Notes under the pieces: generated by a model
What the model saw: the letters and a program-made list of their open reading frames with translations, nothing else
Told to the model about the DNA's origin: nothing
Databases searched by the model: none
Position numbers and translations under genes: made by a program
In this document: positions 3,820 to 35,610 of the stretch, piece after piece
Layout: each line of letters begins with the position of its first letter
Numbering within the stretch: position 1 is the first letter of the stretch
Source of the DNA: a virus
DNA length: 39,621 nucleotides
Direction: 5' to 3' (one strand)
IMG/VR virus record: IMGVR_UViG_3300004460_000357
Coordinates: 1 to 39,621 of that record

Positions 3820-3879
3820 GCCAGTAAATGGCATTCAGCCAAGCCAAAGAAAAGTCCTTTAAAATCAATAACTTAGACA

Positions 3880-3972
3880 AGCTCCTATAAGCTCCCGTAT
3901 CAGCTTTAAAATTAGGCCTATATAAACACCTTAGGAACATTTTAAAACGCGATACGGATAAAATGAGGAGCG
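3880..3972. repeat. Long interrupted inverted repeat, copy 1 of a two-copy structured element
   Basis: In the 186-bp gap between two converging operons the sequence forms a segmented stem: AGCTCCT (3880-3886) with AGGAGC (3966-3971), CCGTATC (3895-3901) with GATACGG (3951-3957), and TTTAAAAT (3905-3912) with ATTTTAAA (3939-3946), around an AGGCC-containing loop. The same plan occurs at 26242-26334 with a different but still paired middle segment. There is no T-run, so it is not a standard intrinsic terminator on either strand. A bidirectional stop, RNase site, protein-binding cruciform or replication site are all possible. Confidence 0.7.
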
Positions 3973-4005
3973 CGATATTTAGTTAAAAATGACAGTAAAG
4001 ACTAA

Positions 4006-4443
4006 TTAGCCAAGTAATGCAAGTATTAGCGAATATGCGGCACCTGCCATTGCAGCATACAGCAAAGCTTTATTAGCTCTTTGATCATCTTTATTATGAT
4101 ATTGCATCGCGGACCTTATGTGACAGTAGGCAGCAACTATACCGAGTCCTTGACGCAACGGAATATTAAAATATACGCCAGTTTGCATTAGCGTATCTGT
4201 TACAGCTAAATTTAAGTACGCTGCAGACCAAGGCAATAACCAATACAAGTTATCTAATGTTTCTCCAGCAAAGCCAATAAATACCCCAATAATAAACCAG
4301 TCTTCTGTTTTTAATGCTTTGCCTCGTTTAGCTTTAGCTACAACAACTTGAGTTGACTTGTACCAAAGCGTAACAACTAATACAGACAATACAATAGTTG
4401 TTATTGTTAAACCGCTAGACAGTAATTCAGCTATCTTTGACAT
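4006..4443 (-). CDS. Polytopic membrane protein at the end of the late operon (possible holin)
   Basis: The 145-residue protein has about three to four hydrophobic segments: residues 11-28 (TITTIVLSVLVVTLW), 50-60 (IIGVFIGFAG), 105-112 (GIVAAYC) and 127-144 (LLYAAMAGAAYSLILALLG), with charged loops between. It is the last gene of the leftward late operon and follows other membrane proteins and a putative wall enzyme. A lysis role such as a holin is therefore likely, but this is from context. It overlaps the preceding gene by 17 nt. Confidence 0.6.
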   Translation of the reverse strand: MSKIAELLSSGLTITTIVLSVLVVTLWYKSTQVVVAKAKRGKALKTEDWFIIGVFIGFAGETLDNLYWLLPWSAAYLNLAVTDTLMQTGVYFNIPLRQGLGIVAAYCHIRSAMQYHNKDDQRANKALLYAAMAGAAYSLILALLG

Positions 4444-4690
4444 TATTGCTCTCTTCTATTTTAACTAATACTGATGCACTCAATTGCTCTACTCCATCCA
4501 TGCGACCTTTTAAATAGTTCATATCGCCAGTAAGAGATATTAACTTTTCTTTTGCCTCCTCGTGCATTGTTTCGCACTTCTTTAGCCTTTCTTGTTCTCT
4601 GTTGGAAGCAGCAACTAGTAATTTCCATAATACGCCAATTACAGCAACTAAACTAGTTATTACAGCTATAGACTCTGGCCTAATATCCAT
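4427..4690 (-). CDS. Small membrane-anchored coiled-coil protein (possible spanin or holin component)
   Basis: The 87-residue protein has one N-terminal transmembrane segment (about residues 8-27, AVITSLVAVIGVLWKLLVAA) followed by a charged heptad-like helix to the C terminus. This topology fits an i-spanin or a class III holin/antiholin. It sits in a run of membrane proteins after the tailspike and DUF5675 genes, and its start overlaps the stop of the gene before it at base 4690. No o-spanin lipoprotein was found nearby. Confidence 0.6.
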   Translation of the reverse strand: MDIRPESIAVITSLVAVIGVLWKLLVAASNREQERLKKCETMHEEAKEKLISLTGDMNYLKGRMDGVEQLSASVLVKIEESNNVKDS

Positions 4691-5199
4691 TACCGTTTAA
4701 ACACTCCGCCAGGTCGCGAACCAAACCACCAACCTACGCACATTACAGCTAAGTATACGGCGGCGTTTACCATATCGTGTAATAAGCCAGTTAATTCAGT
4801 CGGGCTAAATGCATCCAACCCACCCACAGTTTTCCATACAGCACCAAACAAGATAGATACGGTAATCAATAAATAAAACGTTATACCAGGCCGCACAAAG
4901 CGCAAAACGCCTTCCACTTTGTTGCCGTGTGTTTGAGATAAACCAAATGCCTGTAACTCGCCTTCTTCTATAGTTATGGCGCCTTCTACTTTAGCCCGTT
5001 CCATCTGCTTATCTGCCATGTCTAATTCATGCGTACGCTCTAATCTCGATTCAGCAATATCTAGCCTACGCATAGCTTCTTCGTATCTATACTGTTCTTT
5101 TTTAGCTTTAGCTTCAAAAAACTTAGACACCATGCCGCCAAGCAAGCCGGTAATGCCTGCCGCCCCAGGACCTACAAAAAGATCAACTAACCAATCCAT
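4690..5199 (-). CDS. Membrane protein with central coiled coil (3TM holin-like)
   Basis: The 169-residue protein has a glycine-rich hydrophobic N terminus (GPGAAGITGLLGGMV), a long charged helix (residues 28-75, rich in E, K, R), and two C-terminal transmembrane segments (FYLLITVSILFGAVW and AAVYLAVMCVGWWFG). This matches the layout of phage 3TM-holin-type proteins often found near tail genes. A good Shine-Dalgarno (GGAGGTGAT) lies just upstream of the ATG. It probably acts in lysis, but no experiment-based family assignment is possible from sequence alone. Confidence 0.65.
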   Translation of the reverse strand: MDWLVDLFVGPGAAGITGLLGGMVSKFFEAKAKKEQYRYEEAMRRLDIAESRLERTHELDMADKQMERAKVEGAITIEEGELQAFGLSQTHGNKVEGVLRFVRPGITFYLLITVSILFGAVWKTVGGLDAFSPTELTGLLHDMVNAAVYLAVMCVGWWFGSRPGGVFKR

Positions 5200-22756: not shown

Positions 22757-22933
22757 ATGAACAAGACACACTCTTTCTCTACTAAAAATCAGACGGATTT
22801 TGATTTTATAGAGCGAATGAAAATTGAAGCTAGACGAACTGGCAGAAACTTTAGCTGGGTTTGTATACAAGCCTTAAAAGAATACAAAGCTAATAAGGAT
22901 CAAACCAGTGGCGAATCTAACCGAAAAAACTAA
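22757..22933 (+). CDS. Small ribbon-helix-helix-like regulator
   Basis: The 58-residue protein has an N-terminal segment MNKTHSFSTKNQTDFD that could form the DNA-contacting strand, then FIERMKIEARRTGRNFSWVCIQALKEYK, which matches the two-helix pattern of Arc/CopG proteins (turn at TGRNFS). It overlaps the small terminase start by 26 nt, so it leads the terminase operon. Perfect palindromes lie directly upstream. It may regulate terminase and the divergent capsid operon, coordinating packaging with head assembly. The fold call is by pattern; the protein is below the usual length cut-off of gene callers. Confidence 0.65.
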   Translation: MNKTHSFSTKNQTDFDFIERMKIEARRTGRNFSWVCIQALKEYKANKDQTSGESNRKN

Positions 22934-23417
22934 GCTAATAGCTCTAGCGCATTTAAAAGTTGGTAAAAAGCCTAAAGAAGTTGCTGACTTGCTAGACATG
23001 TCTTATGCACAAGCTTTAAAGCTAAATAAAGAATTAGCTAAAGCTGAGCAGCAAGATAACTTACAAGAACTATTTAACTTAGATGAAGCAGCGCTAGAAA
23101 CTTTGTTTGAAAAAGTGCAAACTGAATTAACAGAGCCAATGCAAGCGTTAACCGGCGAAGTTCTTTCAGTTGATGAGTCTATTTCACAGCTAAGTAAATC
23201 TGTTGAAGGCTTAGGCATACTTGAAAAAGAAATGCAAGATGCTGCTATTGTTTTAGTTAAAAAGATTACAGTGCAAGCAACTACGTCAACTACTACAGAT
23301 ACTATTTTAGTACTAGCCGAAGCGTTAGCTAAATTGCAAGGCGCATTCTTTGCTAAAGGTACTAATGTGCAAGTAAACAATATTAACGGATCATTTGAGA
23401 AATACTTACGTGACTGA
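22908..23417 (+). CDS. terS: Terminase small subunit
   Basis: The 169-residue protein starts at GTG with AAGGAT upstream. It has an N-terminal helix-turn-helix (LIALAHLKVGKKPKEVADLLDMSYAQALKLNKEL), a central helical region with Glu/Gln repeats for oligomerisation, and a C-terminal segment (GAFFAKGTNVQVNNINGSF) found at the end of other small terminases. It recognises phage DNA and presents it to the large subunit, whose gene overlaps its 3' end. Confidence 0.85.
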   Translation: MANLTEKTKLIALAHLKVGKKPKEVADLLDMSYAQALKLNKELAKAEQQDNLQELFNLDEAALETLFEKVQTELTEPMQALTGEVLSVDESISQLSKSVEGLGILEKEMQDAAIVLVKKITVQATTSTTTDTILVLAEALAKLQGAFFAKGTNVQVNNINGSFEKYLRD

Positions 23418-25026
23418 TTTAGCTATTACAGAAAAAGAGTTTTTGCAATGGTTTCCTAAACACGAGTATGTCTGGGAACTACTAAATACCTCACCGCGTA
23501 CTGAAGGTGAATTAGTAACTAAATATTTACCTTCTAAGCTGTGGCGATTAAACAATCTTTACAGTATCATTGATAAATATGGCGAACCTTGCATATTTAA
23601 AATGAACAGAGCACAATTCTATGTTTATAGCCATTTGTTTCTTCATCCTCGCCTTATTGTTCTTAAATCTCGCCAGCAGGGTATCTCCACCCTTTTTCTT
23701 GTTTCTTATAGTGATGATAGTCTTTTTTACAGTAATTTTAACTGTGGCTTAATGGCACAAGATAAAGAAGCTGCATCGTTACTATTAGAGCGAACTAAGT
23801 ATTTATGGGATCAGTTTGATCCACAAATTAAAGAGTTCGTTAATCGCAAGTTAACAAAGGATAATGCCAGTGAACTTGCTTTTAATAACAATAGTAGTCT
23901 TTTTATTCGAACCTCCTTTCGGTCTGCTACTCTTCACCGTTTGCACATATCAGAGCTAGGTAAAATTGCCAATAAATTCCCTGATCGTGCAAAAGAAACT
24001 AAGACAGGTACTTTGCAAGCTCTTGCTCCTGGCAACATTGGTGTGGTGGAGAGTACAGCTGAAGGCGCAAACATGTTTAAGACAATGTGGGATGCGGCTA
24101 TAGCGCATTCTACCAAAGGTAACCTTGCAGCTAAAGATTTCATGCCTGTGTTCTTGCCTTGGCTTGATGATCCTGACTGTGTTGAATTCGAGCAGCAGTA
24201 TATAGACAACAATGCAGCTAACTACTTTTCTAAGCTTGAACAAGATACCGGTCGCATATTATTGCCAGAACAAAAGAACTTTTGGATAGCGCAAGAGCGA
24301 GAGCTAGAAGGTGACATTCACCAAGAGTATCCAGCTACACCAGCAGAAGCCTTTGCTGCAGCTAAAGACGGTACGTATTGGGCACGTAAATATTTAGAGC
24401 AAATAATTAGAGGTTCACGTAAAGTACTTGACTTGTATGATCCTAACCTTGACGTATACTGCGTTATGGACCTTGGTCGCAATGACTATATGGTTTTGCT
24501 TTTTTTTCAAGTGTACCGAAATTCAATTCGTATAATACATAGCTATCATAATTCAGGTGAAGGCCTAAAACACTACGCAACTAAGTTGACTGAATTCAAA
24601 ACTAAGTATGATTGGTCACTTAAAGAAATTGGATTGCCGCATGATGCTGTAGTAGTAGATTTAAGCGAAGAAGGACAGCGTTCACGTAAAGACATACTAC
24701 ACGATTACGGCGTAACTAACACTATTGTGCTGGAAAAACAGGGCGTGCTTGCGGGGGTGGAATCAGTTAGAGAAGCTCTACCGTACATGTGGATAGACAA
24801 GAGTTGCGATTACATAGATCAATGTTTTATGAACTACACAAAAGAATGGAACGATACGCTAAATACATGGAAAGATTCACCAAGAAAAAACGAATATGCA
24901 CATGGTGCTGATACTGTTAGGTATATGATTCAGTACTGTCACAGACATCTTCACTTTTCCTTTACATCTCAGAACACCAAAAAGTCTCCTCGTACTAGAT
25001 CACAGGCAAATGGCATAGCTATTTAA
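23395..25026 (+). CDS. terL: Terminase large subunit
   Basis: The 543-residue packaging motor has an N-terminal ATPase with a variant Walker A, LKSRQQGIST (near residue 90), and a Walker B-type LHISELG region (near 180) then VVESTAEG (coupling motif, near 220). The C-terminal RNase H-fold nuclease begins at VMDLGRNDYMVLLFF (near 359) with further acidic residues in DAVVVDLSEEG and EYAHGADTVRY. The given start is TTG at 23395; GTG at 23410 is equally possible, and both overlap the small subunit gene. The gene lies on the strand opposite to the rest of the structural genes. Confidence 0.9.
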   Translation: MRNTYVTDLAITEKEFLQWFPKHEYVWELLNTSPRTEGELVTKYLPSKLWRLNNLYSIIDKYGEPCIFKMNRAQFYVYSHLFLHPRLIVLKSRQQGISTLFLVSYSDDSLFYSNFNCGLMAQDKEAASLLLERTKYLWDQFDPQIKEFVNRKLTKDNASELAFNNNSSLFIRTSFRSATLHRLHISELGKIANKFPDRAKETKTGTLQALAPGNIGVVESTAEGANMFKTMWDAAIAHSTKGNLAAKDFMPVFLPWLDDPDCVEFEQQYIDNNAANYFSKLEQDTGRILLPEQKNFWIAQERELEGDIHQEYPATPAEAFAAAKDGTYWARKYLEQIIRGSRKVLDLYDPNLDVYCVMDLGRNDYMVLLFFQVYRNSIRIIHSYHNSGEGLKHYATKLTEFKTKYDWSLKEIGLPHDAVVVDLSEEGQRSRKDILHDYGVTNTIVLEKQGVLAGVESVREALPYMWIDKSCDYIDQCFMNYTKEWNDTLNTWKDSPRKNEYAHGADTVRYMIQYCHRHLHFSFTSQNTKKSPRTRSQANGIAI

Positions 25027-25123
25027 TAAATTTATTGTATTACTACGGCAGTCATTTATGAGCCAAATATGCATAGTTTAATAAATTTATTGTATTACTA
25101 TAGCAGTCATTTATAAGCCAAAT
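25022..25123 (+). repeat. Two 47-bp direct repeats after terL
   Basis: Copies at 25022-25068 and 25077-25123 differ at only three or so positions and lie 55 bp apart. Each begins with the perfect palindrome AATAAATTTATT and ends AGCCAAAT. The first copy contains the terL stop codon. They begin the 1.6-kb low-coding region and may belong to an origin, an end-processing site or a transcription-end region. Confidence 0.75.
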
Positions 25124-25290: not shown

Positions 25291-25319
25291 TTTACTTTTA
25301 TAGCAAAGACTGTCATAAT
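25291..25319 (+). promoter_or_regulatory. Sigma70-type promoter TTTACT-N17-CATAAT
   Basis: TTTACT at 25291-25296 and CATAAT at 25314-25319 are separated by 17 bp. The same form occurs at 26576-26604 and 35022-35050. It is placed to transcribe the small genes at 25358 and 25572. This supports use of host RNA polymerase. Confidence 0.6.
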
Positions 25320-25796: not shown

Positions 25797-25860
25797 GAAC
25801 TAATAGCTAAGTGATTGGAATGGCGGTGAATTACTTTTGGGTTCAAATCCAAAAAATCCA
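25797..25860 (+). other. tRNA-like relic
   Basis: TAGCTAAGTGATTGGAATGGC (25804-25824) reads as positions 8-25 of a tRNA, with a 4-bp D stem (GCTA/TGGC) and GG in the loop. TTTTGG-GTTCAAAT-CCAAAA (25835-25854) resembles a T arm, though its loop is 8 nt. Only about 10 nt lie between them, so the anticodon arm is missing, and the ends do not form an acceptor stem. A TATAAT box lies at 25781-25786. This is a decayed tRNA gene, an attachment-site remnant or a small RNA, not a working tRNA. Confidence 0.4.
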
Positions 25861-25951
25861 TTACTATTTTTCTATAATACTAAAAATCTATATTTATTAA
25901 AGACTAAAACACCCCCCCTAATATATACTATACCGGGATACGGATTTTTCG

Positions 25952-26162
25952 GATTTGCTCCCCTTTAAGAAACTTATTTTTTATTACTTTTTGGAATATA
26001 CTTTATTCGCTCAATTTTACTACACTTACCTGCCTAATCTATTTATCCTAAATTGCCGATTTGCTCCCCTTTAAGAAACTTATTTTTATTACTTTTTGGA
26101 ATATACTTTATTCGCTCAATTTTACTACACTTACCTGCCTAATCTATTTATCCTAAATTGCC
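25952..26162 (+). repeat. Tandem repeat, two copies of about 106 bp
   Basis: Copies at 25952-26057 (106 bp) and 26058-26162 (105 bp) are identical except for one T in a T-run. Each begins GATTTGCTCCCC and ends TTTATCCTAAATTGCC. No convincing gene is present; a 62-codon frame across it is low-complexity. TTATCCTAA resembles the DnaA box TTATCCACA at seven of nine positions, once per copy. An origin or end-processing role is possible. Confidence 0.9.
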
Positions 26163-26241
26163 CGTTAATTACTTTAATGCTAGTGATAGCAGCAAATTAC
26201 ACTATTCGTAAGTCCTTGATTTTTATACAAATTTTTCATCA

Positions 26242-26334
26242 AGCTCCTGTAAGCCTCCACACCGTGTTTAAAATCAGGCCCTGATGATCATATCAGTTCA
26301 AATTTTAAACACGACACGGATTAAACCAGGAGCT
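26242..26334. repeat. Long interrupted inverted repeat, copy 2 of the structured element
   Basis: AGCTCCT (26242-26248) pairs with AGGAGCT (26328-26334), and CGTGTTTAAAAT (26263-26274) pairs perfectly with ATTTTAAACACG (26302-26313); CCGTG can also pair with CACGG (26315-26319). The loop holds AGGCC and a further small inverted repeat CTGAT/ATCAG. The design and key words match 3880-3972: outer AGCTCCT/AGGAGC, inner TTTAAAAT/ATTTTAAA, and a middle segment whose sequence differs but still pairs. The whole stretch 26163-26575 has no gene. Confidence 0.7.
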
Positions 26335-26575
26335 CAAATTTCGTCTAAAAACAGAGGTAATGCCAAAATCAGTCAAACAATAACAGTAAATGCACTATCA
26401 ATTCACCCGTATCCTTAAACCAAACATTTAGTTATGTCTATAAGAATATCATTAGTTATAGTTATAAACTCTAACGAAAGTGCTTACTTTTCTACTTCTT
26501 ACGTTTATAATTATAAGCATCAAGTCGACAAACTCAGGAATATAAGTTAAAGCGAGAATTACTTGAAAATAAATG

Positions 26576-26639: not shown

Positions 26640-27080
26640 ATGTCAAATTCAAATGTTAAAAAAGTATACATCCCTTTAATTGAACTTCTTGAAGCAAACA
26701 AGAATAAGTCCATAAAAACGCTAATGCCTGAAATACTTGCGTTGACACAATCCAAAACACAAGCTAAGACTTATAGAGTTAACGAGAATGGCGAAGTCAC
26801 TCACGTATTCTGCTACTACCATAAACTATGGGAAGACGTTAGCATCGCAGAGTATGGAGCTAAGGCTAAAACAGCCTCTGGTCTCAATACCATGTGCAAA
26901 GAAGGCTTATCAAATTGGTCTAAACAACAACGTGATTACAAGAAAGCAAAATCACAGATATTAGATCAAGTTGTCGCCGGTACACTATCAGCCGATAAAG
27001 TTGAAGACACTTTGCATGACTTAGAGCAAGCTAAAGATCAAATTGTGCTTCGTGAAGACGGTCACGGCGAAGCAGAGTAA
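26640..27080 (+). CDS. Conserved early protein, paralogue of the gene at 35110
   Basis: The 146-residue protein is unrecognised but shares with the 166-residue product at 35110 the pattern GxVTHxxCxYxKxW, then GAKAxxASGxxxMxKEGxSxWSKQQRxxKKxK, and a C-terminal acidic helix. Both begin with a VKK.Y..LIE.L helix. The central Gly/Ser/Lys block and charged helix suggest nucleic-acid or protein binding. Each paralogue is the first gene after a TTTACA-N17-(T/C)ATAAT promoter, so both are probably expressed immediately after infection. Confidence 0.75.
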   Translation: MSNSNVKKVYIPLIELLEANKNKSIKTLMPEILALTQSKTQAKTYRVNENGEVTHVFCYYHKLWEDVSIAEYGAKAKTASGLNTMCKEGLSNWSKQQRDYKKAKSQILDQVVAGTLSADKVEDTLHDLEQAKDQIVLREDGHGEAE

Positions 27081-27086
27081 TTAGCT

Positions 27087-27557
27087 ATGTTAACACCACA
27101 ACTCATTAGCTACATTGATAAGCTGTCTAAAGAAGAGTTGGCTAATCAGCTCTTCATAGATAGCACAACTAGAGTACTGAATCGCAACGCCTATAACTTG
27201 GCTAAAGCTAAGAAATATGTCAGCATAATCGACTTAGACTCTTTAAAGTATATCAATGATAGCATCAGCCATAGAAAAGGCGACATCCTATTATTAAAAC
27301 TTGCAACACTACTGAGCAAGAATTTTAGTGACGTTTACCGTATCTCTGGCGATGAATTTGTGGTATTATCAGATTGTAACATTAACCCACAGCTTAAAGC
27401 TCTCCAGCATCAGTTTAAGATATTCAGCTTTGGTACTTCTACAACACTAGACAAGGCTGATTTAAAATTGCAAGCGGATAAACAACAGCGAGAGTCTTCA
27501 GGATTAAGAGCTCAACGAGGAGAACAACCGCCATGGTACCAGACGCATATTTCTTAG
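27087..27557 (+). CDS. Minimal stand-alone GGDEF-domain protein (diguanylate-cyclase-like)
   Basis: The 156-residue protein has the GGDEF signature set: DSTTRVLNR (25-33; usually DxLTGLxNR), IDLDSLKYINDS (48-59; metal-binding Asp49, Lys54, base-binding Asn57), SHRKGD (61-66), and the active-site loop RISGDEF (85-91). FSFGTS (113-118) and ADLKLQADKQ (124-133) match the family's C-terminal strand and helix. There is no sensory domain and no RxxD inhibitory site before the motif. The segment after SGDEF is shorter than in bacterial enzymes. It could make c-di-GMP or another cyclic dinucleotide, or bind GTP only. The 3' end overlaps the next gene by 25 nt. Confidence 0.8.
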   Translation: MLTPQLISYIDKLSKEELANQLFIDSTTRVLNRNAYNLAKAKKYVSIIDLDSLKYINDSISHRKGDILLLKLATLLSKNFSDVYRISGDEFVVLSDCNINPQLKALQHQFKIFSFGTSTTLDKADLKLQADKQQRESSGLRAQRGEQPPWYQTHIS

Positions 27558-28794: not shown

Positions 28795-28893
28795 ATGATA
28801 CTACTAGCGCTCGCAATTGCAACAGTAGCTGGCTGGTTACCGCTAACGTGGGCGCTAGTAGCTGTTATACTTTATATATGGTTAGGTAATTAA
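28795..28893 (+). CDS. Small membrane peptide
   Basis: The 32-residue frame is a single hydrophobic helix (MILLALAIATVAGWLPLTWA…). The start follows the preceding stop directly, with GAGGAAAG upstream as a good ribosome-binding site. The stop overlaps the next ATG (TAATG), so it is translationally coupled to the DnaA-like gene. Confidence 0.55.
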   Translation: MILLALAIATVAGWLPLTWALVAVILYIWLGN

Positions 28894-29330
28894 TGAATTT
28901 ATTTAAACTTACAACTAAAGACGGTGAACAATATTTGTTAGCTAATAACATGACTGTTGCGCTGTCTAGATATGAAACAGGCTATGTTACTAGTATAGAA
29001 CACTTGTCAGACAATGTCATAACAGTCAGCGAAAACAACACTGTTATAGCACCAAGCGAGTTACTTTACACTTTTTGTACAGTTAATAAGTTAAACATAG
29101 AGGCAGTGCAAAGTGCAGATAGATCAAAATATTTAGCTGAAGCTAGGAGAACTATAGCGTATTTATTAGAAACAGAATTAGCTTGCTCATTGAGTAGAAT
29201 TGCTGGGTTAATAAATAAAGACCATACTAGCGTAATGCATTACAAAGCTAGTATGGTCAAACAGCTGGAAGCTAAAGAAGGATTAGCTTATGAGTATTTA
29301 ATGAATTATTACAATGCTACGGCAGAATAA
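28893..29330 (+). CDS. DnaA domain IV-like DNA-binding protein
   Basis: The 145-residue protein ends in a helix-turn-helix close to DnaA domain IV: an entry helix (LLYTFCTVNKLNIEAVQS), then YLAEARRTIAYLLETELACSLSRIAGLINKDHTSVMHY. KDHTSVMHY matches the DnaA signature RDHTTVLHA that reads the DnaA box. The ATPase domain is absent; the N terminus (residues 1-60) is a different beta-rich domain. It may bind phage or host origins, or compete with host DnaA. It is last in its block, and its 3' end overlaps the opposing dUTPase-like gene by 14 nt. Confidence 0.78.
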   Translation: MNLFKLTTKDGEQYLLANNMTVALSRYETGYVTSIEHLSDNVITVSENNTVIAPSELLYTFCTVNKLNIEAVQSADRSKYLAEARRTIAYLLETELACSLSRIAGLINKDHTSVMHYKASMVKQLEAKEGLAYEYLMNYYNATAE

Positions 29331-30280: not shown

Positions 30281-32524
30281 TTAGTCTTCCTCTATTTCAT
30301 TAAAAGGTTTCTTTGCTCTATATTTGCGTATTTGCGGTATATCGTAATAGTAAGACTTTTGACCGTTTAGCGTGGTCGGCACTTTAGTGAATTGTTTCAT
30401 ACAAGTATTTAGTCCACGCTTAGTACCTTTACCATCTGTCATTTCGTAATATAAATCTTGTAAGTCATTTTCATAAATTCGACCTTCAGCAGTCCCATTA
30501 AATATTTGAATTGCGTCATATTCAACAGCTAATTCTTCTAGTTCCATAAACATAGCATTAGAAAGTAAAAACGCTATACGTTGACCAGCGCCATAAGCAT
30601 TAGCTATTAGCTTTTTCTTATCTTCTGTGTCTGGTGGCGTCATATATTCATCATGGCTAAGATTGTCAACTTCCGTTGCTAAGTAGTAAGCAAAATCGTT
30701 AATTTCATTTTCTATAGCTTCTTGTACTGCGGCTACACCCCCAAAAGACTGAACCCATGCTTGTTCTCTTAAATTGTTAGGGCAACTAAATAGTGCCATT
30801 CGTCTGTCGTCACCTTCAACAAACAGTGGATTTCTATTAGCCGTCATAACAAATGTAGCGTTGTGAACGTAGTTAAAACCATCGGTGCGCATTTGCCTTA
30901 CCTGCACTTTATTTTTACCTGTGTAGGCTTTAATTTTGCCTAAGGCATTTTCTTTTTCGTCGTACCTAGTAAGTTGGTTACCATACTCATCTAGCTGCAC
31001 AAAATATTTGTCTAGTAGCCAACCGTTATACATTTCTAAAAACTCTTTGACTGTTGGTCTTGCTAAACTATCTTCACCAATTATCAGTTCAATAATCTTT
31101 ACTACTGTATCTTTACCTGCACCTGGTACACCTAAAAAATAAAGAACAACTGGTGAGTACTCAAATTTATCTAGCTTACGTCGCATAAATTTCAGTAAAT
31201 AGTTTCGCGTATAATTATCTGGCACTAAGGACTCAAGAAACTGTAATATAGCAACAGGTCTAGTGTATTTATCTGCGTATATGGCAGGTTCTTTAAAAAT
31301 ACTTAAAGCTAATGAAGGCGAAAAAGTATTAAACGCAATAGCATCAGTGCTGTTAAAAAAGCCGAAAGGCTTAGCCGGCGTACTAGTAACATCAACTAAT
31401 GGCAAAGTACTTTTAATTTCTTTGCGGCCTGGTGGATCAATAGCTATAGCTTCTACGTAACTGCAAAATTCTTGCTCTCTATTAAAAGCTTTAGATTTAC
31501 AACTAAGTACATCTGCGGCGTAATAGTTCATTCTATTGGGGTCATAGAAAGCATCAATAATTTCATTTCGCTTAGACATTAATTGCAACTTACCTTCTTG
31601 CCAATTTTCGTCATACTGCCAAATAGGTACGCCGTCAACAGAAGCACGCTCTTCTACCATAGGTTCGATTACAGTTGATGACAATCGAACTTTAGGCATT
31701 GGCGTACTAAACATATTGTTAATAACTTCCATAGCATCAACGTAAAGATCAACATCTACACTAGGATCAGCGCCAAGTATTCCGCTTACTTTAGATAAAT
31801 ACTCTGAGCCACGGCCTTCTGGAACGTCATCTGGAGCCAAATATTTTTTATCTACGTATTCGTCTGAATCCCTAAAATCTTTTGGCGTGAGAACTCTGAA
31901 GAGGTTAGGAATGACTTTTTTAGATCGAACAAAATTGTTTAATTGCGGTGCTAAGTGATTTACCCAAGTTTTTTCTGACAACTCGCGTTCTGCCAGCGAT
32001 ACTTTAACAGGCTTTAATGATTTTAATAAAGCTAGTACTTCTAATGGAGCTTCTTTTAATTCAACTAGCTTAAAACGCTCTTTAGTTTTATTTGCTTCTG
32101 AAGGCAAATAAACAAAGCCACCGTTAGAATAAAAGTCTAATCGCATTGCCGCAGTATTTAGTCTAAACGTGTCCGGCACTTCAGAAGAATACTTATAAAC
32201 TATAATACCTGCATTTAAGTCTGCACCTAAGTTATCTTTTTTACCTTTACTAATAAAATGAAACTTATATGTTGGGTCTAATGCCTTAAACAAATTATAC
32301 GTGGTTGTATCATCACAGTCTATAGCTATAATATCAGAGATGCTGCCTGTTATAACGCCGCCTAAAGGCGAGGCTTCTTCATTGAATTTTTTGGCAAAAG
32401 CTACGTTCCAATTCTCTGGAAACATAGGCAAAGTTTTCTTACCGTTAGCTAATCGTTTTAACTCACCACCTAGCGGAACTGTATGCCACTTTAAATCTAT
32501 ATAAGGTTTAATTGTTTTTATCAT
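30281..32524 (-). CDS. Primase-helicase (AEP-type primase with D5-like SF3 helicase)
   Basis: The 747-residue protein joins a primase to a replicative helicase. The N-terminal prim-pol-like part shows LGGVITGSISDIIAIDCDD (IDCD acid pair near residue 70) and MRLDFYSNGGFVYLPS. The helicase has Walker A GVPGAGKDT (residues 465-473, Lys471), Walker B FVQLDEYG near 504, and the motif C/sensor MTANRNPLFVEGDDRRM near 560, as in D5/SF3 proteins. It would unwind and prime phage DNA. It overlaps the small protein gene upstream by 17 nt. Confidence 0.87.
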   Translation of the reverse strand: MIKTIKPYIDLKWHTVPLGGELKRLANGKKTLPMFPENWNVAFAKKFNEEASPLGGVITGSISDIIAIDCDDTTTYNLFKALDPTYKFHFISKGKKDNLGADLNAGIIVYKYSSEVPDTFRLNTAAMRLDFYSNGGFVYLPSEANKTKERFKLVELKEAPLEVLALLKSLKPVKVSLAERELSEKTWVNHLAPQLNNFVRSKKVIPNLFRVLTPKDFRDSDEYVDKKYLAPDDVPEGRGSEYLSKVSGILGADPSVDVDLYVDAMEVINNMFSTPMPKVRLSSTVIEPMVEERASVDGVPIWQYDENWQEGKLQLMSKRNEIIDAFYDPNRMNYYAADVLSCKSKAFNREQEFCSYVEAIAIDPPGRKEIKSTLPLVDVTSTPAKPFGFFNSTDAIAFNTFSPSLALSIFKEPAIYADKYTRPVAILQFLESLVPDNYTRNYLLKFMRRKLDKFEYSPVVLYFLGVPGAGKDTVVKIIELIIGEDSLARPTVKEFLEMYNGWLLDKYFVQLDEYGNQLTRYDEKENALGKIKAYTGKNKVQVRQMRTDGFNYVHNATFVMTANRNPLFVEGDDRRMALFSCPNNLREQAWVQSFGGVAAVQEAIENEINDFAYYLATEVDNLSHDEYMTPPDTEDKKKLIANAYGAGQRIAFLLSNAMFMELEELAVEYDAIQIFNGTAEGRIYENDLQDLYYEMTDGKGTKRGLNTCMKQFTKVPTTLNGQKSYYYDIPQIRKYRAKKPFNEIEED

Positions 32525-35109: not shown

Positions 35110-35610
35110 ATGTCAGTTAAAAAAGCTTATGCAAATCTTATCGAATTTTTAAAAGTAAACGAAGACAAAAAAGTAAAAACAATTCTTGATGAAGTGGTTA
35201 CTATGTGTTCGGCTAAATCTGCCGGCTCTTCTGCTACTACTGTCCATCGTGATGAAGCTGGTATCGTTACTCACATTCGTTGTGGTTACTTCAAACAATG
35301 GCTGCCTATATCTCATGTTGAGTTTGGCGCAAAAGCAGGTTCCGCATCTGGTTTCAGCCCGATGAGTAAAGAAGGTACTTCTTTATGGTCTAAACAGCAA
35401 CGCGAAGCTAAAAAGTCAAAAGAAGACTTGCTACAAGGTGTTGCTTCTGGTGAAGTTGAAGCTTCTGATTTGGCTAATCGTTTAGAGCAAATTGAAGAAA
35501 CTCGTACTAGCACTTACAGTCATCCGTTAGGAACTGACACTGTTGAAGAAGCAATCGCGTTAACTTCTGCAGATTTAGATGCTATGTGTGAAGCAGAAGC
35601 CGCTGAATAA
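35110..35610 (+). CDS. Conserved early protein, paralogue of the gene at 26640
   Basis: The 166-residue protein shares the GAKA..ASG...M.KEG.S.WSKQQR..KK.K block (residues about 76-106) with the 146-residue product at 26640, and differs by an extended acidic C terminus (EAIALTSADLDAMCEAEAAE). It has a strong ribosome-binding site (CGGAG) and is followed at once by an intrinsic terminator, so it can be made as a short, abundant transcript. Function unknown; a DNA-binding or host-takeover role fits the expression pattern. Confidence 0.78.
   Translation: MSVKKAYANLIEFLKVNEDKKVKTILDEVVTMCSAKSAGSSATTVHRDEAGIVTHIRCGYFKQWLPISHVEFGAKAGSASGFSPMSKEGTSLWSKQQREAKKSKEDLLQGVASGEVEASDLANRLEQIEETRTSTYSHPLGTDTVEEAIALTSADLDAMCEAEAAE

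Follow-up and report, generated by a model that had tools for sequence, protein, structure and literature searches.

What two distant non-coding hairpins do in one viral genome is the question raised by an IMG/VR virus record of 39,621 nt, analysed here over its whole length (the window). PHROG matches indicated a genome of podovirus type, its late operon on the minus strand and its replication genes on the plus strand. A sequence-only reading had pointed to two elements with AGCTCCT/AGGAGC outer arms, and both were found as claimed. The named arms were located at 3880-3971 and 26242-26334, and the pattern AGCTCCT-N70..85-AGGAGC marked exactly these two sites (three matches over both strands against 0.03 expected; three reached in 0 of 100 shuffles). 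The two copies, A and B, are one imperfect hairpin element of about 98 nt present twice in the window (Table 1). Either strand of either copy folded as a strong RNA hairpin (z -3.7 to -7.7 in four folds, equalled by none of 200 dinucleotide shuffles in each), and the minus strand of B was the most stable 100-nt segment in a scan of the whole 39.6 kb in steps of 10.

VRR-NUC (to 3819) and the last late gene (4006-4443, minus) converge on a 186-nt gap; copy A lies in this gap, 31 nt past the stop codon of the late gene. Copy B lies in the 1.6-kb non-coding gap that runs from the terminase large subunit (22908-25026 by PHROG matches) to the first gene of the early operon, to which it is antisense. 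The pair does flank the late and terminase region, as had been remarked, but this is a property of the window phage and not a general trait. The likeness of A and B extends beyond their arms: TTTACTGTYATT (minus, 3999 and 26390) and AAGTCCTT (3852 and 26210, beside A and B) each occur at only two places in the window. Allowing up to three mismatches, TAAGTCnTTGATTTATAA also matched twice in the window, 3' of A and of B (0.75 expected by chance). This motif, imperfectly matched and facing either way, was found directly 3' of A, B, both copies of record G032 and the copies of G052 and G046; it leads into an AAGGAG start site in G032. Locus L102 (Amaethon) has two hairpins of the TAAGTCnTTGATTTATAA motif at 4316-4403 and 4621-4735, with 5' arms 85% alike, which flank an origin-like repeat.

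Table 1. Positions of the hairpin copies and neighbouring features in the window, and sites of copies in related phages
Feature	Position	Strand	Score, records or remark
Hairpin copy A	3877..3974	minus	R2 93.2 bits, R3 75.9 bits
Hairpin copy B	26238..26336	minus	R2 98.6 bits
Flanking motif directly 3' of A, TAAGTTATTGATTTTAAAGGACTT	3852..3875	minus	match to TAAGTCnTTGATTTATAA
Flanking motif directly 3' of B, TAAGTCCTTGATTTTTAT	26209..26226	plus	orientation opposite to B
5' flank of A, block common with region upstream of B, TTTACTGTCATTTTTAA	3983..3999	minus	
TTTACTGTTATT block upstream of B	26379..26390	minus	sole other place with the 5'-flank motif of A
Origin-like inverted pair AATCCAAAAAATCC / GGATTTTTCGGATTT, AT-rich centre	25846..25955		about 300 nt from B; context, outside the element
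Deaminase/pyrophosphohydrolase-like gene to exonuclease gene junction			G010, G032, G055, G024, G007
After DNA ligase			G032, G052, G047, G046 (and near duplicate G049)
After VRR-NUC, meeting point of early and late operons			G040, G008
Terminase-to-early gap, or beside it		early-operon strand	G001, G011 (two), G029, G012
Terminase-to-early gap, or beside it		opposite strand	B, G066, MW202744 (two), G013, weak G045

Several other features of the window were recorded. An inverted AATCCnAAAAATCC / GGATTTTTnGGATTT pair, a candidate replication origin, occupies the equivalent gap group-wide (window 25846-25955, VPMS1 42196-42299, Amaethon 4482-4624, L159 254-426, L008 12520-12990); in VPMS1 it is a hairpin with 40-nt arms. 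Tandem repeats with AATAAATTTATT at the terminase stop codon (25022-25123) are a candidate packaging site, and repeats of this kind also follow the terminase in L008, PH1, KF-1 and MW202665. A 97-nt tandem duplication (92%) at 25961-26162 lies between the origin-like repeat and B, and 43-nt repeats start at 25318 and 25532. Two phrog_10459 paralogs (26640-27080 and 35110-35610, plus) each stand first in a plus-strand operon. The early operon encodes a 156-aa protein (27087-27557, plus) with a GGDEF domain (Pfam E 4e-11) and an SGDEF signature. A 145-aa protein (28893-29330, plus) has a DnaA C-terminal DNA-binding domain (Pfam E 6e-9), and possibly is initiator-like or origin-binding. One and the same short repeat in tandem (CGCCTGAGCCAA) occupies both contig ends (1-25 and 39598-39621), which suggests that the record is probably a circular molecule opened at this repeat.

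Occurrence in related phages

By terminase, the relatives of the window phage are Pseudoalteromonas phage PH1, Vibrio phage VPMS1, the Edwardsiella KF-1 group (Kafunavirus per record taxonomy), Dickeya phage Amaethon and two uncultured records. A covariance model (R1) was built from the minus strands of A and B. It gave nothing convincing in the loci of 12 relatives searched together with the window, nor in nine of their records, these being the nearest relatives by terminase and VRR-NUC. Among 68 loci retrieved by alignment of the first early gene product (phrog_10459), R1 matched L142 at 4432-4534 (E 7e-9), L159 at 32-129 (E 0.008) and, weakly, L160. A search of related phages with a model from both copies had been proposed as a check. 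A second model, R2, was made from A, B, L142 and L159. Scanning for the loop pattern gave 14 stretches, three of them true (L183 at E 1e-13 and two in contigs already known), and whole-record searches contributed more copies. The matches in L142 and L183 count as independent finds. A third model, R3, was then made from 14 copies aligned with MAFFT. Since R2 and R3 were trained on earlier matches, this chain of models is partly circular.

At E<=0.01, R3 matched 20 of 76 related records (12 of 40 and 8 of 36), a tally in which G006 stands in both record lists, G046 and G049 are near duplicates and G025 is disbelieved. The match in G025 (17.5 bits, partial) was no better than the control and was rejected as a copy. 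Matches outside the training set were found in G001, G007, G024, G029, G008 and G066, with a weak one in G045 (23 bits). In the control of 80 unrelated viral loci (728,508 bases), the best score was 17.2 bits (E 0.92). At most two clear copies were found per related record by R3, and the L008 copy lies on the plus strand. R3 gave no match in PH1, MW202665, KF-1 or Amaethon, and none below E 6.5 in VPMS1, IW-1, ETP-1 or ZHX.

Searches by sequence or pattern were also made. With blastn, both regions against phages and B against plasmids left the element unmatched. The exact terminal-arm pattern GCTTAYAGGAGCTTG occurred in 82 stretches of viral contigs, all by chance (R1 on 80; all inspected by eye). 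A second loop pattern gave 15 stretches: L175 and L183 were already known, seven new ones were of other kinds and not such hairpins, and the remaining six had come up in the first loop scan, negative or below E 0.5. One strict loop pattern in bacterial genome contigs gave five stretches, none an element by R3; loop-variant copies would escape it. Rfam 15 had no match in the window at the gathering threshold, and in E-value mode returned mostly miRNA-precursor matches, far under threshold. We found no description of such an element in the literature, which does not show that none exists.

Absence from close relatives had been named as a point against selection for structure. The outcome was mixed: in IMGVR_UViG_3300032087_003790, the closest full relative, A is missing but a diverged homolog occupies the place of B. 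On the phrog_10459 tree, the element is present in 19 of 47 rows, where absence may be false in short records, and this distribution takes at least 10 changes, against a mean of 15.2 in 500 shuffles, one of which was as low. This patchy presence indicates that the element is dispensable. Between the deaminase-like and exonuclease genes of KF-1, IW-1, ETP-1 and ZHX, a 25-nt stretch agrees with the 3' end of the G052 copy in 22 of 25 letters, with no 5' half; none of 500 shuffles of the KF-1 gap matched this 3' end as well. The stretch is a degenerate or partial copy.

Unlike hairpins were found in comparable gaps: in VPMS1 after SSB (z -8.2) and at the deaminase-exonuclease junction (z -5.2), and in MW202665 before SSB (z -6.4). 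Among 23 gaps hand-picked from six phages, including MW202744 which holds copies elsewhere, 11 folded with z under -2.5. These unlike hairpins suggest that the presence of a hairpin at such junctions matters more than its exact sequence. In locus L103 (VPMS1), a perfect 22-bp stem at 31551-31636 lies between SSB and the gene that follows it; its sequence is unrelated to A and B.

Covariation and structure of the RNA

The sequence-only reading had also held that the middle arms change in compensation between the copies. Its comparison of CCGTATC/GATACGG with CGTG/CACG, however, pairs unlike segments. In the minus-strand alignment, CCGUAUC/GAUACGG of A stands opposite CCGUGUC/GGUGUGG of B, with one-sided changes whose G-U wobbles keep pairing. 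Of 26 pairs compared between A and B, 16 were identical, seven had changed on one side with pairing kept, three were broken in one copy and none had changed on both sides with pairing kept. Compensation therefore fails on the two copies alone, and only other phages rescue it.

The RNA has an outer stem of about 8 bp, a 6x6 internal loop, a long inner stem of about 16-20 bp, another loop and, at the apex, a conserved stretch. In the four sequences A, B, L142 and L159, 91.3% of cells were paired and two-sided change was seen in 13 of 26 pairs (6.5 on average after shuffling, with none of 500 shuffles reaching 13). Shifting the partner by one to three columns left one to five two-sided pairs. Across the 14 copies, 73.0% of cells were paired against 63.5% when shuffled (0 of 500), 19 pairs had changed on both sides against 14.1 (6 of 500 as high), and the covariation score was 0.408 against 0.250 (0 of 500; at most 0.245 on a one-column slide). 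As the copies were picked by structure-aware models, these counts are biased towards structure; the cleanest evidence is the four-sequence count together with the R1 match to L142. Selection for structure is thus borne out by the relatives but not by A and B alone.

The outer stem was the least well paired helix (66%) and the apical letters were the most conserved, reading (A/G)ATATGnTTATCARGGCCTAA. A profile made without A and B scored their minus strands at 30.9 and 42.8 bits, respectively, and their plus strands at 13.7 and 4.5 bits. In strand-neutral folds, G-U outnumbered A-C by 53 to 34 (p 0.053, suggestive), and by 12 to 2 in A and B alone. The same folds gave stems of 35-43 pairs in 13 of 14 copies and 30 in one, long enough for the roughly two helical turns of a T7-type RNase III processing signal. 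Taken together, the elements are very probably a real structured RNA family. A and B are copies of a structured RNA element of about 98 nt found in some Kafunavirus/PH1/VPMS1-like phages.

Sites of the copies and proposed role

All 12 operon-site copies (A included, G049 left out as a near duplicate of G046) begin 3-31 nt (median 10.5) past the stop codon of a co-directional gene. Copy A shares the meeting point of the G040 and G008 copies, where it follows the last late gene on the late strand. The exonuclease downstream of the deaminase-like gene belongs to phrog_107 in three cases and phrog_69 in two, indicating that the element tracks the upstream gene. Copies that follow the ligase likewise have a constant upstream gene, and VRR-NUC or unknown genes downstream. 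Masking of a Shine-Dalgarno site by the AGGAG arm was considered and rejected, start codons not being adjacent in most copies.

We favour an mRNA 3'-end or intercistronic processing/stability hairpin, by analogy with the RNase III sites of phage T7, and give this reading a probability of about 0.5. Several traits fit it: the copies lie past stop codons, are co-directional with the gene ahead and stay with that gene whatever lies downstream; the stem is long and no T-run follows it; and relatives have unlike hairpins. The hairpin would be cut in the mRNA by a double-strand RNase, host RNase III being the obvious candidate, or might instead block 3' exonucleases. The upstream cistron would thereby gain its own protected 3' end. 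Copy A would serve the 3' end of the late transcript, and B may belong to an RNA of its own that diverges from the early operon, or be a spare copy near the origin. Against processing, B has no co-directional gene ahead of it, and 6 of 11 copies in the terminase gap are oriented against the early operon. The patchy presence of the element, the modest excess of G-U over A-C and the strong folding of only 11 of the 23 gaps in relatives also weigh against it. Amongst the roles offered by the sequence-only reading, a small RNA or other transcript-level role comes nearest.

RNase III is not known to require a conserved apical sequence, so processing alone leaves the loop unexplained. The conserved apical loop suggests a second, specific partner, either protein or RNA. 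We tentatively extend the processing reading to a dispersed RNA regulon, a conjecture with the odds against it. Copies spread in the genome and alike through mutual copying would be interchangeable 3'-end modules at DNA-metabolism cistrons, their apical loop read by a common phage or host factor.

It is rather unlikely that the element is an operator, at which a phage RNA-binding protein reads the apical loop and tunes translation or decay of neighbouring nuclease or ligase genes. The apical stretch is the best-conserved part, the genes directly downstream are often nucleases, and T4 gp43 acts on its own leader hairpin, as outlined in PMC3014915. However, the downstream start, where a gene follows, is some 18-88 nt off and the gene varies; A and the copies of G040 and G008 close their operons, no co-directional gene following; and the phage protein is putative.

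Less likely still is a hairpin that moves or copies itself (in the manner of a MITE, or by template switching), tolerated behind genes and of minor function. Its presence is patchy, and the copies of MW202744 and of G011 have partial arms or flanks in common. Copies are mutual best matches within the genome in three of four two-copy genomes (MW202744, G011, G032), and the best match of A is B, that of B being the G052 copy. Yet the stem is maintained by covariation despite large sequence change, the element recurs at the same two junctions in phages that have diverged, and inspection of A and B by eye found no target-site duplication. A MITE or insertion sequence remnant would have inverted ends with unlike flanks and a target duplication; the flanks of A and B are common to both, unlike those of transposed copies. 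Inheritance at fixed junctions and copying within the genome both seem to occur.

A structure acting at the DNA level (a cruciform, or a hairpin in single-stranded DNA) that serves to start replication, in resolution or in packaging is improbable. Several gap copies lie 150-480 nt (by eye) from the origin-like inverted GGATTTTTnGGATTT pair. However, only gap copies are near it; twelve copies sit behind genes away from the origin-like region, always on the strand of the gene, and the middle-helix substitutions of B pair solely as minus-strand RNA. Most operon copies in relatives lie between genes of the replication operon, far from the terminase, and the origin, resolution or packaging role once suggested is not supported in general. 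Least probable of all is a transcription terminator or antiterminator RNA: A and the G040 and G008 copies do stand at operon ends and would place a structured RNA in the nascent transcript, but no T-run follows the stem, which leaves the suggested transcription block of intrinsic type unsupported, a terminator scan gave no site at B and, close to A, a single unrelated one, and most operon-site copies are mid-operon, where full termination would harm.

Comparison with known systems

The element is a covariation-backed RNA with no Rfam 15 match, in a phage group with few cultured members. Should the proposed mechanism be true, lytic phages outside the T7 lineage would divide polycistronic mRNAs by shared, copyable hairpin modules. 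The factor might be sought through the conserved loop, and Edwardsiella phages of the KF-1 type, with a partial copy at the same junction, are a possible laboratory entry point.

Phage HK022 has two related structured RNAs in its genome, the put RNAs, which lie early in transcripts and form two-hairpin structures. The window phage also has two related structured RNAs in one genome, but they are single hairpins at mid-operon and operon-end sites. Bacterial REP/BIME elements are dispersed palindromic repeats after stop codons, thought to shield mRNA 3' ends. Here too dispersed palindromes follow stop codons, but they are 98 nt rather than short units and phage-borne, with no associated transposase seen. 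Instead of the many short palindromic copies per genome of REP/BIME, one or two occur, with at most two clear copies per record.

The gp43 operator of T4 and RB69 is likewise a phage mRNA hairpin with a conserved loop (PMC3014915). It is 16-18 nt in length, at a single site in its own leader, whereas the element here is long, dispersed and placed behind genes.

The RNase III processing signals of phage T7 (R1.1 and others) are described in PMC4858673 as irregular hairpins between the genes of polycistronic mRNAs of a podovirus. Here too a hairpin lies behind or between polycistronic genes, on the sense strand in 12 of 12 operon-site copies. In contrast, B and five other gap copies run against the early operon, the apical sequence is kept across copies and phages, the copies are homologous and RNase III cleavage is putative. 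We know of no such shared sequence among the T7 sites. The element, uncatalogued in Rfam 15, would thus act like known intercistronic hairpins, and is novel in its conserved loop, its homologous dispersed copies and its phage group.
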